Positions 21,969 to 27,700 of a stretch of DNA of 64,000 nucleotides are shown here, in pieces. The position numbers and the translations under genes are program-made. Origin of the DNA: Paracoccaceae bacterium (GTDB lineage Bacteria > Pseudomonadota > Alphaproteobacteria > Rhodobacterales > Rhodobacteraceae). The stretch lies in contig REBU01000041.1 of assembly GCA_007692585.1 (NCBI GenBank), forward strand, positions 1 to 64,000, given 5' to 3'. Below the pieces are notes generated by a model. It searched no databases. It was not told the DNA's origin and was given only the letters and a program-made list of their open reading frames with translations. Numbering within the stretch: the stretch's first letter is position 1; the number at the start of each line of letters is the position of its first letter.

Positions 21969-23825
21969 TCAGCTGAATTCCTCGGACTGGATTTTCAGCT
22001 TCTTGATGCGCGAATGCAGCGTTGTGGGTTGCAGCCCCAGAAGCTCTGCCGCGCCCGCATCGCCCGAAACCTTGCCTTGCGTCAGGCGTAGCGCGGCCAC
22101 GAGGTTGTCGCGGGCGAGGCGGGTCAGTTCGGCCTCGGTCAGGATGGTGTCCTTGGCCCCGCTGCGGCGCAGCATGGGCTGCGCCAGATCGACCTGCAGC
22201 TTGCCGCCCTTCGAGATGATCGCGCCCCGGTCGATCACATTCTGCAATTCGCGCACATTGCCTGGCCAGTCATAGCCGATCAGCTTGTCCATCGCCTGCC
22301 GTGTGATGGTCGGCGGGGTCATGTTCAGCCGTTTGCACGACAGCGCGAGAAAATGCGCGGCCAGTGCCGGGATGTCTTCGGGGCGCTGGCGCAGGGCGGC
22401 GCAGACAATCGGGAAGACATTGAGATAGATGTACAAATCCTGCCGGAACGCGCCCTGGCGCACCAGGGTTTCCAGCGATCTGCGGCTGGCGGCAATCAGG
22501 CGCAGATCGATGCGGCGGGCCTGCGTGTCGCCAAGCCGCGTGACCGAGCGTTCCTGCAGCGCGTGCAGCATCCGCCCCTGAATCGCCAGCGGCAATTCAT
22601 CCACATCATCGAGAAACAGCGTCGCGTTATGCGCCAGTTCCAGCATGCCGGGCTTGTCGCGCAGCGCGCCGGGATAGGCGCCGCGCATCTGACCAAAAAG
22701 CTCGGCCTCGATCGCGTCGGATTTCACCGCGCTGCATTTGAAATGGATCAGGGACCGCCTGCGCCGCGCGCTGCCCTTGTGGATGGCCGAGGCGACCAGC
22801 GCCTTGCCGGTGCCCGCTTCGCCTGTGATCAGCACATTGGCGTCCGTGCCGGCCACAAGGTCGATCTTGCTGATCACCTGCAGGATCGCGGGCGAGGTCC
22901 CGATGATTTCGTGATGCGCCCGCGCCGAGGCGATGGTTTCCTGCAGATAGGCGTTTTCCTGTTCCAGCCGGTCGCGCAGATCCTGCACTTCCTGCATCGC
23001 CTCGCGCAGCTTGCGTTCGTTTTCCTTGCGCTCGGTGATGTCGCGGAAGATCACCACGGCGCCGGCCAGAACATTCTGGTCATAGATGGGCGTCGAGACA
23101 TATTCGACGCGGATCGGTTTGCCATCCTTGCGCCAGAACACCTCATCCTCGATGCGGTTGACCTGCTCGAAGCGGAAGGACTGGTAGATCGGGCAGTCAT
23201 GGGAGGGGTAGACCTCGCCATTGAGGTGGTGATGGTGGATCATCGAATGGATGTCGCGGCCCAGCAGATCCTCGGCGCTCCAGCCCAGCATTTCGCGCGC
23301 GGCGCGGTTGACGAAGGTGGTCTTGCCATCGGCATTGACGCCGTAGATGCCTTCGCCTGCGGCATTCAGGATCAGCTGGTTCTGGCGCTCCAGTTCCGTG
23401 AAGAAATCCTGCGCGCGTTGCCATTCCAGCAGGCCAAGGCGCTGCAACTGGTTGGCTTCGGTGATCTGGTCATGGCGCGAGAGCTCATTGAGGTCGATCA
23501 GCGTGAGCAGGATCGCGCCGTCGATCCCGTCAAGGCGCGTGCCGCGCAGCTCGCAGCTGAGCGGGTGGTGGTTCAGATCCTGCAGCGCGATATCGCGTCG
23601 CCAAGCCTGGCCGCGATGGGCCAGTTCGTCGAGAAATACCAGAAAACCGGGCAGGCTGCCCGCAAGATGCGGCGCGAAGGCAAAGCCCGACGGCGCGGCT
23701 TGGCCGAGCAGGCGCATGGCGCGCTCATTGGCCGCGCGCACGCGGTCGCGCGCGGTGTCGAGCACCAGCACCGGATGGGGAAAGGCGTCGAGCAGGGAAT
23801 CGGCGGGCAGGTCATCGCATGTCAT
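21969..23825 (-). CDS. PAS-containing enhancer-binding-protein-like regulator with degenerate AAA+ motifs
   Basis: A 618-residue regulator. An N-terminal PAS-like region (1-120), a second PAS (about 150-265, ending 'VVIFRDITERKENERKL'), a coiled coil, an NtrC-type AAA+ domain (about 310-540) and a C-terminal Fis-type HTH ('SGDAGAAELLGLQPTTLHSRI'). The sigma-54-contact GAFTGA loop reads 'GAYPGA', Walker B is 'LFLDDVDEL' (DD for DE) and the arginine-finger region is 'DLYIYLNV' instead of 'DLYYRLNV'. Walker A 'GEAGTGKALVASAIH' keeps its Lys. It is therefore probably not a sigma-54 activator. It is divergent from the cyanate operon, with two palindromic sites between them, and is likely its regulator. 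Confidence 0.88.
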   Translation of the reverse strand: MTCDDLPADSLLDAFPHPVLVLDTARDRVRAANERAMRLLGQAAPSGFAFAPHLAGSLPGFLVFLDELAHRGQAWRRDIALQDLNHHPLSCELRGTRLDGIDGAILLTLIDLNELSRHDQITEANQLQRLGLLEWQRAQDFFTELERQNQLILNAAGEGIYGVNADGKTTFVNRAAREMLGWSAEDLLGRDIHSMIHHHHLNGEVYPSHDCPIYQSFRFEQVNRIEDEVFWRKDGKPIRVEYVSTPIYDQNVLAGAVVIFRDITERKENERKLREAMQEVQDLRDRLEQENAYLQETIASARAHHEIIGTSPAILQVISKIDLVAGTDANVLITGEAGTGKALVASAIHKGSARRRRSLIHFKCSAVKSDAIEAELFGQMRGAYPGALRDKPGMLELAHNATLFLDDVDELPLAIQGRMLHALQERSVTRLGDTQARRIDLRLIAASRRSLETLVRQGAFRQDLYIYLNVFPIVCAALRQRPEDIPALAAHFLALSCKRLNMTPPTITRQAMDKLIGYDWPGNVRELQNVIDRGAIISKGGKLQVDLAQPMLRRSGAKDTILTEAELTRLARDNLVAALRLTQGKVSGDAGAAELLGLQPTTLHSRIKKLKIQSEEFS

Positions 23826-23860
23826 GGCGCGAGCCTTGCCGTCGCAGCGGGCAGGCGCAA

Positions 23861-23891
23861 TACGAAATTTCGTAAGTTATGAAATATCGTA
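23861..23891. promoter_or_regulatory. Tandem palindromic operators between regulator and cyanate operon
   Basis: Site 1 'TACGAAATTTCGTA' (23861-23874) is a perfect 14-bp palindrome. Site 2 'TATGAAATATCGTA' (23878-23891) is the same site with two changes. Centre-to-centre distance is 17 bp. They lie 36-53 bp upstream of the regulator start and about 145-170 bp upstream of the ABC binding protein start, the arrangement expected for binding of a dimeric Fis-HTH regulator. Confidence 0.75.
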
Positions 23892-24033
23892 ATTAAAATT
23901 TGAAAAAAAGTCACTCAAGAAACTGAAATTAAAACAAAGTCTATTCTTTGAGCAGTTCCTGTTTTCGGGTGGAGTCTGCGCAAGCTGCGGGTCATCCTTG
24001 GACAGGAGCAGCAGATCGCAGACAGGAGTCACT

Positions 24034-25410
24034 ATGTCGAACAAGAGCCTTGGGAATCCGTTTTCGGCCAAATCCGACCTGCGCCACGGAGCCGCCTGTG
24101 GCTGTGCCGAGTGCAAATCCGATGCCCATGCGCGGGTCGCAGCGCCGATGACGCGCGAGGCCATGCTGGAACGCGCGGTCGAGAGTGCGGTCGTGCGCTC
24201 GGTCTTTGGCCATAACGAATTGAACCGCCGGTCGATGCTGGGCATGCTGGGCGGCGGGGCCTTTGCGGCCGCGCTCGCATCCGTCTTTCCGATGGACAAG
24301 GCCAAGGCGCTGATCCTCGATGATCTGGGGCCGATCGAGAAGCCGGATCTGAAGGTCGGCTTTGTCGCGATTACCTGCGCCACGCCCATCATCATGGCCG
24401 AGCCGATGGGATTTTATGACCGCTACGGGCTGAATGTCGAGATCATCAAGACGGCCGGATGGGCGGTCGCGCGCGACATGTCGCTGTCGGGCCAGTATGA
24501 TGCCAGCCATATGCTGACGCCCATGCCACTGGCGATGACGCTGGGGCTGGGCTCTTCGGCGGTGCCCTATATCATGCCCGCGGTCGAGAATATCAACGGG
24601 CAGGCCATCGTGCTGTCCAATGAGCATCTGGACAAGCGCGACCCGGCGCAATGGAAGGGCATGACCTTTGGCGTGCCGTTCGAATATTCGATGCATAATT
24701 TCCTGCTGCGTTACTATGTGGCCGAGCATGGTCTGGACCCGGATCGCGACATCCAGATCCGCGTCGTGCCCCCGCCCGAGATGGTGGCGAATCTGCGCGC
24801 GGGCAATCTGGACGGCTATCTGTCGCCTGACCCGTTCAACCAGCGCGCGGTCTGGGAAGGGATCGGCTATATCCATCTGCTGACCAAGGATCTGTGGGAA
24901 GGTCATCCCTGCTGTGCCTTTGCGACCCCGCGTCGCTTCGCGGTTGAGAACCCCAACACTTACGGCGCGCTGTTGCGGGCGATCATCGACGCCACGCAAT
25001 ATGCGTCCAACCACGACAACCGCCGCGAAATCGCGGAAGCCATTGCGCCTGCGGCCTATCTCAACCAGCCTGTGCCCGTGCTGGAGCAGGTGCTGACCGG
25101 GACGTTTGCCGATGGTCTGGGCAATGTGCAGCGCGAGCCCGACCGGATCGATTTCGATCCCTTCCCCTGGCATTCCATGGGGGTCTGGATCCTGACGCAG
25201 ATGAAGCGCTGGGGCTATATCCAGAACGAGATCGACTACAAGGCCATCGCCGAGCAGGTCTATCTGGCCTCGGATGCGCGCAAGGTCATGGCGGAGCTGG
25301 GCTATGACGCGCCTGAGGTCAGCTACAAATCCCATACGATCATGGGCAAGACGTTCGATCCCGACCAGCCGCAAGCCTATATCGACAGCTTTGACATCAA
25401 GCGGGGCTGA
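24034..25410 (+). CDS. Tat-exported nitrate/cyanate-type ABC substrate-binding protein
   Basis: A 458-residue NrtA/CmpA/CynA-like periplasmic binding protein. A twin-arginine signal 'NRRSMLGMLGGGAFAAALA' follows a Cys-containing N-terminal extension ('GAACGCAECKSDAH'). The mature part has family blocks 'LKVGFVAITCATPIIMAEPMGFY', 'GKTAGWAVARD'-like and 'LSPDPFNQRAVWEGIGYIH'. Starting ATG at 24034 has 'AGGAG' upstream; the track uses 23998. With the permease, ATPase and cyanase that follow, cyanate is the best-supported substrate, and nitrate/bicarbonate binding is an alternative. Confidence 0.9.
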   Translation: MSNKSLGNPFSAKSDLRHGAACGCAECKSDAHARVAAPMTREAMLERAVESAVVRSVFGHNELNRRSMLGMLGGGAFAAALASVFPMDKAKALILDDLGPIEKPDLKVGFVAITCATPIIMAEPMGFYDRYGLNVEIIKTAGWAVARDMSLSGQYDASHMLTPMPLAMTLGLGSSAVPYIMPAVENINGQAIVLSNEHLDKRDPAQWKGMTFGVPFEYSMHNFLLRYYVAEHGLDPDRDIQIRVVPPPEMVANLRAGNLDGYLSPDPFNQRAVWEGIGYIHLLTKDLWEGHPCCAFATPRRFAVENPNTYGALLRAIIDATQYASNHDNRREIAEAIAPAAYLNQPVPVLEQVLTGTFADGLGNVQREPDRIDFDPFPWHSMGVWILTQMKRWGYIQNEIDYKAIAEQVYLASDARKVMAELGYDAPEVSYKSHTIMGKTFDPDQPQAYIDSFDIKRG

Positions 25411-25413
25411 GCC

Positions 25414-26247
25414 ATGCAAACCCTGTCTGTCAACAAACGTGCGGCGATCCTGTCGGTTCTGCTGCTGATCTTCGCGCTGGGGGCCTGGGAAGTCTCGGTC
25501 ACCCGGCAGGAGGTCGGCGTAGCGCTGACCGAATACGAGATCCTGATGGGTCTGGGCCAGCCCCGCGCGGCGGTCCCGCCGCCCAGCGATGTGATGATCC
25601 GCGCCTGGGAACAGCTGAGCGATCCCTTCTACGACAACGGACCCAACGACAAGGGCATCGGCATTCAGCTGGCCTATTCGATCCAGCGCGTGCTCACAGG
25701 GTTCTTGCTGGCCGCCGCCATGGCGATTCCGTTGGGCTTTCTGATCGGCATGTCGCCTGTCGCATACAAGGCACTGAACCCGTTCATACAGGTGCTGCGC
25801 CCGATTTCGCCGCTGGCCTGGATGCCGCTTGCGCTGTTCATCATTCAGGACAGTCAGGCGAGTGCGATTTTCGTGATCTTCATCTGTTCGGTCTGGCCGA
25901 TGCTTCTGAACACGGCCTTTGGTGTGGCAGGGGTGCGGGCCGATTGGGTCAATGTGGCGCGCACGCATGAGCTGGGCAGTCTGCGCACCGCGCTGACCGT
26001 GATCCTGCCTGCCGCCGCGCCCACGATCCTGACGGGGATGCGGATTTCCATCGGGATTGCGTGGCTGGTGATCGTGGCCGCCGAGATGCTCGTGGGCGGC
26101 ACCGGGATTGGCTATTACGTCTGGAACGAGTGGAACAACCTCGATCTGACCTCGGTCATTTTCTCGATCCTGATGATCGGCCTTGTGGGCATGGTGCTGG
26201 ATGCGATCTTCGCCAGCCTGCAGCGCGCCGTCACCTATGCCGAATGA
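25414..26247 (+). CDS. Cyanate/nitrate-type ABC transporter permease
   Basis: A 277-residue NtrB/CynB-like inner-membrane permease with about six helices. The cytoplasmic EAA-type loop ('EAA--G') is 'VARTHELGSLRTALTVILPAAAPTILTGM'. Start is 3 bp after the binding-protein stop, so it is in the same operon and likely translationally coupled. Forms the translocation pore for the binding protein upstream. Confidence 0.92.
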   Translation: MQTLSVNKRAAILSVLLLIFALGAWEVSVTRQEVGVALTEYEILMGLGQPRAAVPPPSDVMIRAWEQLSDPFYDNGPNDKGIGIQLAYSIQRVLTGFLLAAAMAIPLGFLIGMSPVAYKALNPFIQVLRPISPLAWMPLALFIIQDSQASAIFVIFICSVWPMLLNTAFGVAGVRADWVNVARTHELGSLRTALTVILPAAAPTILTGMRISIGIAWLVIVAAEMLVGGTGIGYYVWNEWNNLDLTSVIFSILMIGLVGMVLDAIFASLQRAVTYAE

Positions 26248-26260
26248 AAAGGAAGCTTCC

Positions 26261-27199
26261 ATGTCCAAACCTTTCCTGAGCGTCGAGCGGCTGACCCAGA
26301 GCTTTCCTGACGGGGCGGGCGGCACGCTGACGGTCTTCGAGAATGCCAGTTTCGGGATTGAGAAGGGCGAGTTCGTCTGCATTCTGGGCCATTCGGGCTG
26401 TGGCAAATCCACGATCATGAATGTGCTCGCGGGGCTTGCCGAGCCCACATCCGGTGTCGTCAAGATGGACGGGATGGGGGTTTCCGGTCCCAGTCTGGAC
26501 CGGGGGGTGGTGTTTCAGAACTATTCGCTGCTGCCCTGGCTGAGTGCGCTGAAAAACGTCACTTTCGGCGTCAAGGCGCGCTACCGCGACTGGTCGCGCG
26601 ACAAGGTGGTGGACCATGCCACGCGCTATCTGGCCATGGTCGGGCTGGAAGGCGATGTGATCCATCGTAAGCCCAGCCAGCTGTCGGGCGGCATGCGCCA
26701 GCGTGTCTCCATCGCGCGGGCTTTTGCCAATCAGCCGAAACTTCTGCTGCTCGATGAACCTTTCGGCGCGCTCGATGCGCTGACACGCGGCACGATTCAG
26801 GAGGAGCTTTTGCGCGTCTGGAGCAAGACCGAGCAGACCGTCTTCATGATCACCCATGACATTGACGAAGCGATCTTGCTGGCCGACAGGATTTTGCTGA
26901 TGACCAACGGGCCCTTCGCGCGGATCGCGGAATCGGTCGAGATCACCATCCCGCGCCCGCGTGTGCGCACCGAGATCGTGGAGCACCCCAATTACTACGC
27001 CATCCGCAACCATCTGGTGCAGTTTCTGGGCAAGCGCTCGAAGGAACTGGCCGGGCGCGCCTCGGATGGGGCCAGCCAGAGCCCGGCGCCTGTGCGCATC
27101 GATCTGACCGCCCCGGCGGAAAACCCCGAACCTGGCCCCCAAACCGGCCCCGAATCTGGCCGTGAACCGCGCGCCCATCTCAAGGCCGTGCATGGCTGA
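26261..27199 (+). CDS. Cyanate/nitrate-type ABC transporter ATP-binding protein
   Basis: A 312-residue ATPase. Walker A 'GHSGCGKSTIMN', signature 'LSGGMRQRVSIARAF', Walker B 'LLLLDEPFGALD' and the switch His in 'FMITHDIDEAI' are intact. A C-terminal extension after residue 260 is Pro/Glu-rich and low complexity ('NPEPGPQTGPESG'). The ATG at 26261 follows 'AAGGAAG'; the track's 26183 start overlaps the permease. NrtD/CynD-like. Its stop abuts the leader of the cyanase gene. Confidence 0.92.
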   Translation: MSKPFLSVERLTQSFPDGAGGTLTVFENASFGIEKGEFVCILGHSGCGKSTIMNVLAGLAEPTSGVVKMDGMGVSGPSLDRGVVFQNYSLLPWLSALKNVTFGVKARYRDWSRDKVVDHATRYLAMVGLEGDVIHRKPSQLSGGMRQRVSIARAFANQPKLLLLDEPFGALDALTRGTIQEELLRVWSKTEQTVFMITHDIDEAILLADRILLMTNGPFARIAESVEITIPRPRVRTEIVEHPNYYAIRNHLVQFLGKRSKELAGRASDGASQSPAPVRIDLTAPAENPEPGPQTGPESGREPRAHLKAVHG

Positions 27200-27229: not shown

Positions 27230-27700
27230 ATGAAAGACCTGATGCAAGATGCAGAGATGCTGACCAAGGAGGATGTCACGGCGCTAATTCTCGCCGCAAA
27301 GAAGCGCCGCGGCCTGAAATGGGAGGAGATCGCCGCCGCTATCGAGCTGTCGCCGGTTTTCACGCATTCGGCGGCGATGGGCATGAATTCCATGCCCGCC
27401 GACAAGGCGGCGGCGCTGGTGGCGTTCCTCGATCTGCCCCCGGAAGCTGCGGAAGTGCTGCAGGACTATCCCACCAAGATCTGGGAACAGGCCGTGCCGA
27501 CGGACCCCTGTATCTACCGGCTTTATGAAATCGTAGGCGTTTACGGGCCGACGATGAAGGCGATCATTCAGGAAGAATTCGGCGACGGGATCATGTCGGC
27601 GATTGATTTCGACATGATCATCAGCCGTGTGCCCCATCCCAAGGGCGACCGGGTGAAGGTCGAGATGACGGGCAAATTCCTGAAATACAACGACTGGTAA
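27230..27700 (+). CDS. cynS: Cyanate hydratase (cyanase)
   Basis: A 156-residue cyanase converting cyanate and bicarbonate to ammonia and CO2 via carbamate. The HTH-like N-terminal part 'GLKWEEIAAAIELSPVFTHSA' and the catalytic segment 'YRLYEIVGVYGPTMKAIIQEEFGDGIMSAIDF' carry the Arg, Glu and Ser of the active site. The second half of the DNA-binding-like region differs from E. coli ('SAAMGMNSMP' for 'TAALLGQMTLP'). The start is the ATG at 27230 after 'AAGGAGA'; the track's 27200 lacks one. Last gene of the operon, ended by a strong terminator. Confidence 0.95.
   Translation: MKDLMQDAEMLTKEDVTALILAAKKRRGLKWEEIAAAIELSPVFTHSAAMGMNSMPADKAAALVAFLDLPPEAAEVLQDYPTKIWEQAVPTDPCIYRLYEIVGVYGPTMKAIIQEEFGDGIMSAIDFDMIISRVPHPKGDRVKVEMTGKFLKYNDW

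Follow-up and report, generated by a model that had tools for sequence, protein, structure and literature searches.

The regulator gene that faces the cyanate genes in the window (the whole stretch of DNA that was analyzed, 64,000 nucleotides) probably encodes an enhancer-binding protein (EBP) of the CynF type that binds ATP, is impaired in ATP hydrolysis, and works from a remote operator, which has been retained, to activate a promoter of the sigma-70 type. The protein has lost its sigma-54 motifs and the cynA promoter its -24/-12 element, the operator is retained, the gene is under purifying selection, and rpoN is absent from the assembly. Considering the protein motifs, the promoter, the distribution of rpoN, and the canonical orthologs of other families, there is strong support at the sequence level for CynF no longer depending on sigma-54, and the use of sigma-70 by CynF would be the natural consequence.

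The cyanate locus and its regulator

The locus comprises the following features, given by their coordinates in the window.

21969..23825, minus strand: CynF-type regulator of 618 aa, with N-terminal region, PAS domain, AAA+ domain (PF00158), AAA lid, and Fis-type HTH (from the ORF, domain search, and orthologs)
23016..23381, minus strand: PAS domain of the regulator, residues 149 to 270
21972..22151, minus strand: C-terminal HTH region of the regulator, residues 559 to 618, GAAxLL...PTTLxSR, kept in and beyond Rhodobacteraceae
24034..25410, plus strand: cynA, CmpA/NrtA-type substrate-binding protein (NMT1_2)
25414..26247, plus strand: cynB, ABC permease (ntrB model)
26258..27199, plus strand: cynD, ABC ATPase (ntrCD model)
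27230..27700, plus strand: cynS, cyanase

The reading frame of the regulator is intact at 618 aa, with the Fis-type HTH as a weak domain match, and cynA-cynB-cynD-cynS are divergent from it; given these cynABDS-type neighbors, the regulator occupies the CynF position of Pseudomonas pseudoalcaligenes. For comparison, 38 orthologous loci were taken from GTDB genomes and more from two genome sets, and the gene order around the regulator was identical in all loci L013 to L050, as far as the contigs reach. Moreover, the window regulator and the cyn-linked orthologs from other families form one clade. Judged by its sequence, the regulator is what Rhodobacteraceae have as their ortholog of CynF, an activator specific to the pathway of cyanate transport and cyanase. 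In P. pseudoalcaligenes CECT5344 (cynFABDS), CynF is needed for the expression and cyanate induction of cynABDS, and a putative sigma-54 site has been reported before cynA (PMC6627978). By analogy with this counterpart, positive control of the cyn genes by CynF would be expected. The window protein is like CECT5344 CynF, going by the published description, in its orientation divergent from cynABDS and in being a Fis-type EBP, whereas the putative sigma-54 promoter before cynA of CECT5344 finds no equivalent in the window, where both the promoter element and the sigma-54 motifs are missing.

NtrC proper was ruled out, because a receiver domain is missing and the regulator reaches 247.6 bits with the ntrC model (TIGR01818), far short of the cut-off of 558.6. 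The term "NtrC-family" used in the initial annotation fits the AAA+ domain only, the protein as a whole being a CynF-type PAS-EBP without a receiver domain. In addition, orthologs adjoin nit1C nitrilase clusters (L145 and L146: an Acinetobacter plasmid, and Loktanella with both cyn and nit1C), suggesting that the CynF family serves cyanide/nitrile clusters too.

Sigma-54 motifs in the window protein and its orthologs

An alignment of 49 Rhodobacteraceae CynF proteins against 18 orthologs of other families, mostly adjoining cynA or cynS, was used to assess the sites on which sigma-54 activation depends. In the window protein, these sites read as follows, with counts referring to the 49 Rhodobacteraceae proteins.

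22800..22823, minus strand: Walker A GEAGTGKA (residues 335 to 342), Lys kept in 49/49, the next Glu lost in 49/49
22665..22682, minus strand: L1 loop GAYPGA (residues 382 to 387) instead of GAFTGA
22605..22610, minus strand: Walker B D406-D407, catalytic Glu replaced by Asp (Asp in 38/49, Glu in 11/49)
22479..22499, minus strand: sensor I LIAASRR (residues 443 to 449), Asn448 replaced by Arg
22416..22448, minus strand: arginine-finger segment FRQDLYIYLNV (residues 460 to 470), R461 kept, second finger position 467 occupied by Tyr, finger absent in 49/49

All 18 outside orthologs are canonical at every site, with GAFTGA or GAFSGA as the loop. The initial annotation had singled out three changes, namely GAYPGA for GAFTGA, DD for DE in Walker B, and YIYLNV in the finger segment. 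The first holds at a place where GAF[T/S]GA is invariant in 18/18 outside orthologs, and the third likewise, the outside form being YFRLNV and the second arginine finger having become Y467; the second is present (TLFLDD) but carries less weight, since E to D is a conservative change and Glu persists in 11 of the 49 relatives. Two further changes were absent from that annotation, i.e., residue 342 is Ala in the window CynF versus Glu in every outside ortholog, and residue 448 is Arg versus Asn. Thus three requirements of a functional sigma-54 EBP (GAFTGA, the second arginine finger, and the Walker B DE) are lacking in the window CynF, and a missing GAFTGA next to an intact Walker A Lys is as expected of a sigma-70 EBP of the Rhodobacter capsulatus NtrC kind. 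The lost second finger (Y467) lies in what we take to be the alignment column of PspF R168. This finger (R299 in NtrC1, R168 in PspF) contacts the gamma-phosphate of the neighboring subunit (PMC7175178).

Across the family, the second arginine finger (Arg467) and the post-Walker-A Glu342 are absent from 49/49 Rhodobacteraceae orthologs, the sensor-I Asn is kept in 1/49, and GAF[T/S]GA is absent from 46/49, with GAFTGA or GAFSGA surviving in L039, L041, and L099. Lys341 (49/49), Asp406 (48/49), Arg461 (49/49), and the sensor-II Arg525 (48/49) are kept. Since the altered sites are invariant in 18/18 outside orthologs and changed across the 49 inside, the motif changes are not a matter of chance. 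The tree resolved the Rhodobacteraceae CynF proteins as a single clade (support 100/100), with the GAFTGA survivor L099 branching near its base. Because the finger is gone in every branch and GAFTGA is still found in L099, L039, and L041, the tree suggests that the finger was lost first and that drift of the loop followed, on more than one occasion. In the plasmid-borne orthologs of Methylobacterium aquaticum, Bosea, and Acinetobacter ursingii, the motifs are canonical or nearly so (the loop of the Methylobacterium copy is GSFTGA), and -24/-12 elements are present; the first two adjoin cyn genes and the Acinetobacter copy adjoins a nit1C cluster. The Loktanella salsilacus copy reads GAFGGA and is without both the second finger and -24/-12.

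Promoter, operator, and distribution of rpoN

Under the strict -24/-12 rule (GG-N10-GC), the element was detected in 19/19 outside promoters, where it is of the type TGGCAC-N5-TTGC, versus 0/50 Rhodobacteraceae promoters (p = 2e-17, the relatives not being independent). Upstream of the window cynA, no -24/-12 was found (the top-scoring site reached 9.5 of 14.5, with p = 0.78 against shuffles), in line with the earlier remark that none precedes the divergent operon. The sigma-70 control proposed with that remark is borne out as far as sigma-54 dependence is lost (motifs, promoter, rpoN, and orthologs), but a consensus scan of window positions 23700 to 24100 gave no sigma-70 box. A conserved block of about CTGCRCCGCRG, particular to the window's genus (L013 to L017 and L028; ∼23970 to 23990 in the window) and located ∼80 bp past the operator, may belong to the promoter of cynA.

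Comparison with relatives marked three elements between cynF and cynA.

23861..23892, no strand assigned: two near-palindromes TACGAAATTTCGTAA and TATGAAATATCGTAA, 17 bp apart, a conserved operator (putative UAS)
23915..23925, plus strand: IHF-like TCAAN4CTG, a putative consensus match with a similar place in relatives
23938..23954, plus strand: degenerate remnant of the dyad TGCNCAAATTTTGNGCA, right half only

The tandem palindromes (ACGAAATTTCGT) are common to the Rhodobacteraceae and outside promoters, the latter usually having three palindromes of the type ACGAAATATCGT and the former two, 17 bp apart; a genome-wide search found the tandem operator once in the window's genome. In nearly all Rhodobacteraceae promoters, the operator lies ∼36 bp from the cynF start, so autoregulation of cynF is likely, and its distance to the cynA start is most often ∼130 to 155 bp (∼143 to 150 bp ahead of the ATG in the window). 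A TCAAN4YTG element, which we take to resemble an IHF site, is conserved ∼25 bp beyond the second palindrome in Rhodobacteraceae, and DNA bending may therefore be kept. Moreover, the dyad TGCNCAAATTTTGNGCA occurs in 22/50 cyn intergenic regions, 56 to 58 bp past the CynF operator and near the former place of -24/-12; L018 and L036 are among the relatives that have it. The same dyad stands upstream of amtB and of glnK-amtB in two relatives (L141:154-170 and L143:1594-1610). As amtB and glnK-amtB are classic NtrC targets, the dyad is probably the NtrC box of Rhodobacteraceae; the window itself has no clear NtrC box (best 8 of 12 matches, p = 0.225).

The closeness of the operator to the cynF start codon in nearly all relatives, with the autoregulation that it makes likely, would also suit a degenerate EBP that has become a repressor or anti-repressor, occluding the divergent promoters from the palindromes until relieved by cyanate. 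Precedents exist in Caulobacter NtrC, which is also without GAFTGA and represses some promoters (PMC10274813), and in TyrR, which works as a repressor (PMC3162934). We regard this alternative as unlikely, because the fixed spacing of ∼143 bp between the operator and the cynA ATG is the geometry of a remote activator, the ATP-binding residues of the AAA+ domain are still conserved, and in Pseudomonas the corresponding protein is indispensable as an activator (PMC6627978).

With respect to the sigma factor, the window's genome (a draft of 116 contigs, 98% complete) gave no match to the DNA-binding or core-binding models of RpoN (PF04552 or PF04963). GAFTGA is missing from all eight of its EBPs, which include NtrX, a response regulator with GAFPGA, and an NtrC-like protein whose loop is deleted. 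In the EBPs other than CynF (L001 and L003 to L008), the L1 loop is deleted in most, and L001 combines GAFPGA with a kept arginine finger. Among 151 Rhodobacteraceae genomes drawn, 45 had a strong rpoN match, and the DNA pattern for F-G-x3-GAFTGA was present in 28/45 of these versus 0/106 of the others (p = 5e-19). This coupling is imperfect, because L039 and L041 keep GAFTGA or GAFSGA in genomes without a convincing rpoN match. Within the window's genus, rpoN was found in some species and not in others, several incomplete drafts being among the latter. Degenerate CynF proteins were present in at least nine rpoN-positive genomes of the ortholog set and, in addition, in L098 and L105, which rules out rpoN loss as the cause of CynF decay; most simply, the change in CynF preceded the loss of rpoN. 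Roseinatronobacter thiooxidans is one such rpoN-positive species with a degenerate CynF. It is also very improbable that the draft has missed an existing sigma-54 and that CynF still works with it, relying on a variant of GAFTGA that is tolerated and on a promoter of non-canonical form. The draft state of the assembly (116 contigs, 98% complete) and the occurrence of rpoN in some congeners would leave room for this, but the same motif losses appear in orthologs of rpoN-positive genomes, strict -24/-12 is absent in 50/50 promoters, the second arginine finger is absent in 49/49 proteins, and the window's genome encodes no GAFTGA protein at all.

Selection, known systems, and the proposed conversion

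The cynF gene is under purifying selection, with pairwise dN/dS of 0.02 to 0.14 and very low dN in the PAS domain, and the dN/dS values ruled out pseudogene status for the window copy. Positions invariant in outside orthologs were kept in Rhodobacteraceae at 33/34 in PAS, 10/14 in the HTH, and 62/108 in AAA+, and residues of this kind were lost at 21/108 in AAA+ versus 1/34 in PAS (p = 0.027). In Paracoccus hibiscisoli, cynF is cut short and frame-broken with cynABDS still adjoining (L048:6001-7238). This copy is what could be cited for a decaying cynF and an end to cyn regulation, an account that is hardly credible against the full-length ORF, the dN/dS of 0.02 to 0.14, and the conservation of operator, PAS, and HTH over dozens of genomes.

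Degenerate EBPs, in genomes without sigma-54 and elsewhere, are already known; HupR, TyrR, DhaR, and VpsR have a defective GAFTGA and use sigma-70, and Thr to Pro in GAFTGA has been tabulated as a recurrent change (PMC3162934). The window CynF shares the defective GAFTGA with these four regulators but differs from them in its sensory domain and targets. The closest worked example is R. capsulatus NtrC, whose L1 loop is deleted and which acts on sigma-70 promoters; it has to bind ATP for this but need not hydrolyze it (PMC10274813, citing Bowman and Kranz 1998). Like that protein, the window CynF is an EBP without a working GAFTGA from the same order; unlike it, CynF has a PAS domain in place of a receiver domain, keeps the length of the loop, and has lost an arginine finger. 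The parallel with R. capsulatus NtrC drawn in the initial annotation may thus stand for the mechanism and fails for membership, since the loop is deleted in NtrC and substituted in CynF, with the finger lost.

We propose that the ancestor was an ordinary sigma-54 enhancer-binding protein with all motifs present, facing a -24/-12 promoter. In the stem of the Rhodobacteraceae clade, -24/-12, the second arginine finger, the post-Walker-A Glu, and (in nearly all members) the sensor-I Asn would have been lost, and GAFTGA would have drifted repeatedly thereafter, with selection holding the sensory PAS domain, the ATP-binding residues, the HTH, and the tandem operator. CynF most likely still binds ATP and oligomerizes on the two palindromes but would do so without productive hydrolysis, contact with sigma-54 and the activation of hydrolysis in trans presumably being gone, and it may activate a sigma-70-class holoenzyme much like R. 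capsulatus NtrC. Nitrogen control by NtrC probably operates alongside CynF in many relatives, and rpoN would have been lost later in several species of the window's genus, the window's own included. More tentatively, the whole clade may have undergone an in-place conversion from sigma-54 to sigma-70, in which the enhancer and sensor were kept, three palindromes became two, and -24/-12 disappeared, an NtrC box taking its place at a similar distance in many members (NtrC itself being off sigma-54). The role of ATP would have changed from that of a fuel to that of an allosteric ligand, and the conversion would have preceded, and maybe permitted, repeated rpoN loss; we consider this wider scenario possible rather than probable.

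Sigma-54 systems are usually seen as all-or-none, with promoter, sigma factor, and activator interdependent. In the open literature, we found no description of a single orthologous locus that was converted in place, its activator and promoter changing together throughout a family and its sensor and operator persisting. Because the two states of this locus can be compared at constant operator and sensor, it becomes possible to order and test the steps from an ATP-driven enhancer protein to a sigma-70 activator. For the Rhodobacteraceae CynF clade, the database label "sigma 54-interacting transcriptional regulator", under which the Loktanella copy is found, for instance, is misleading, and genomes without rpoN keep EBPs as working regulators.
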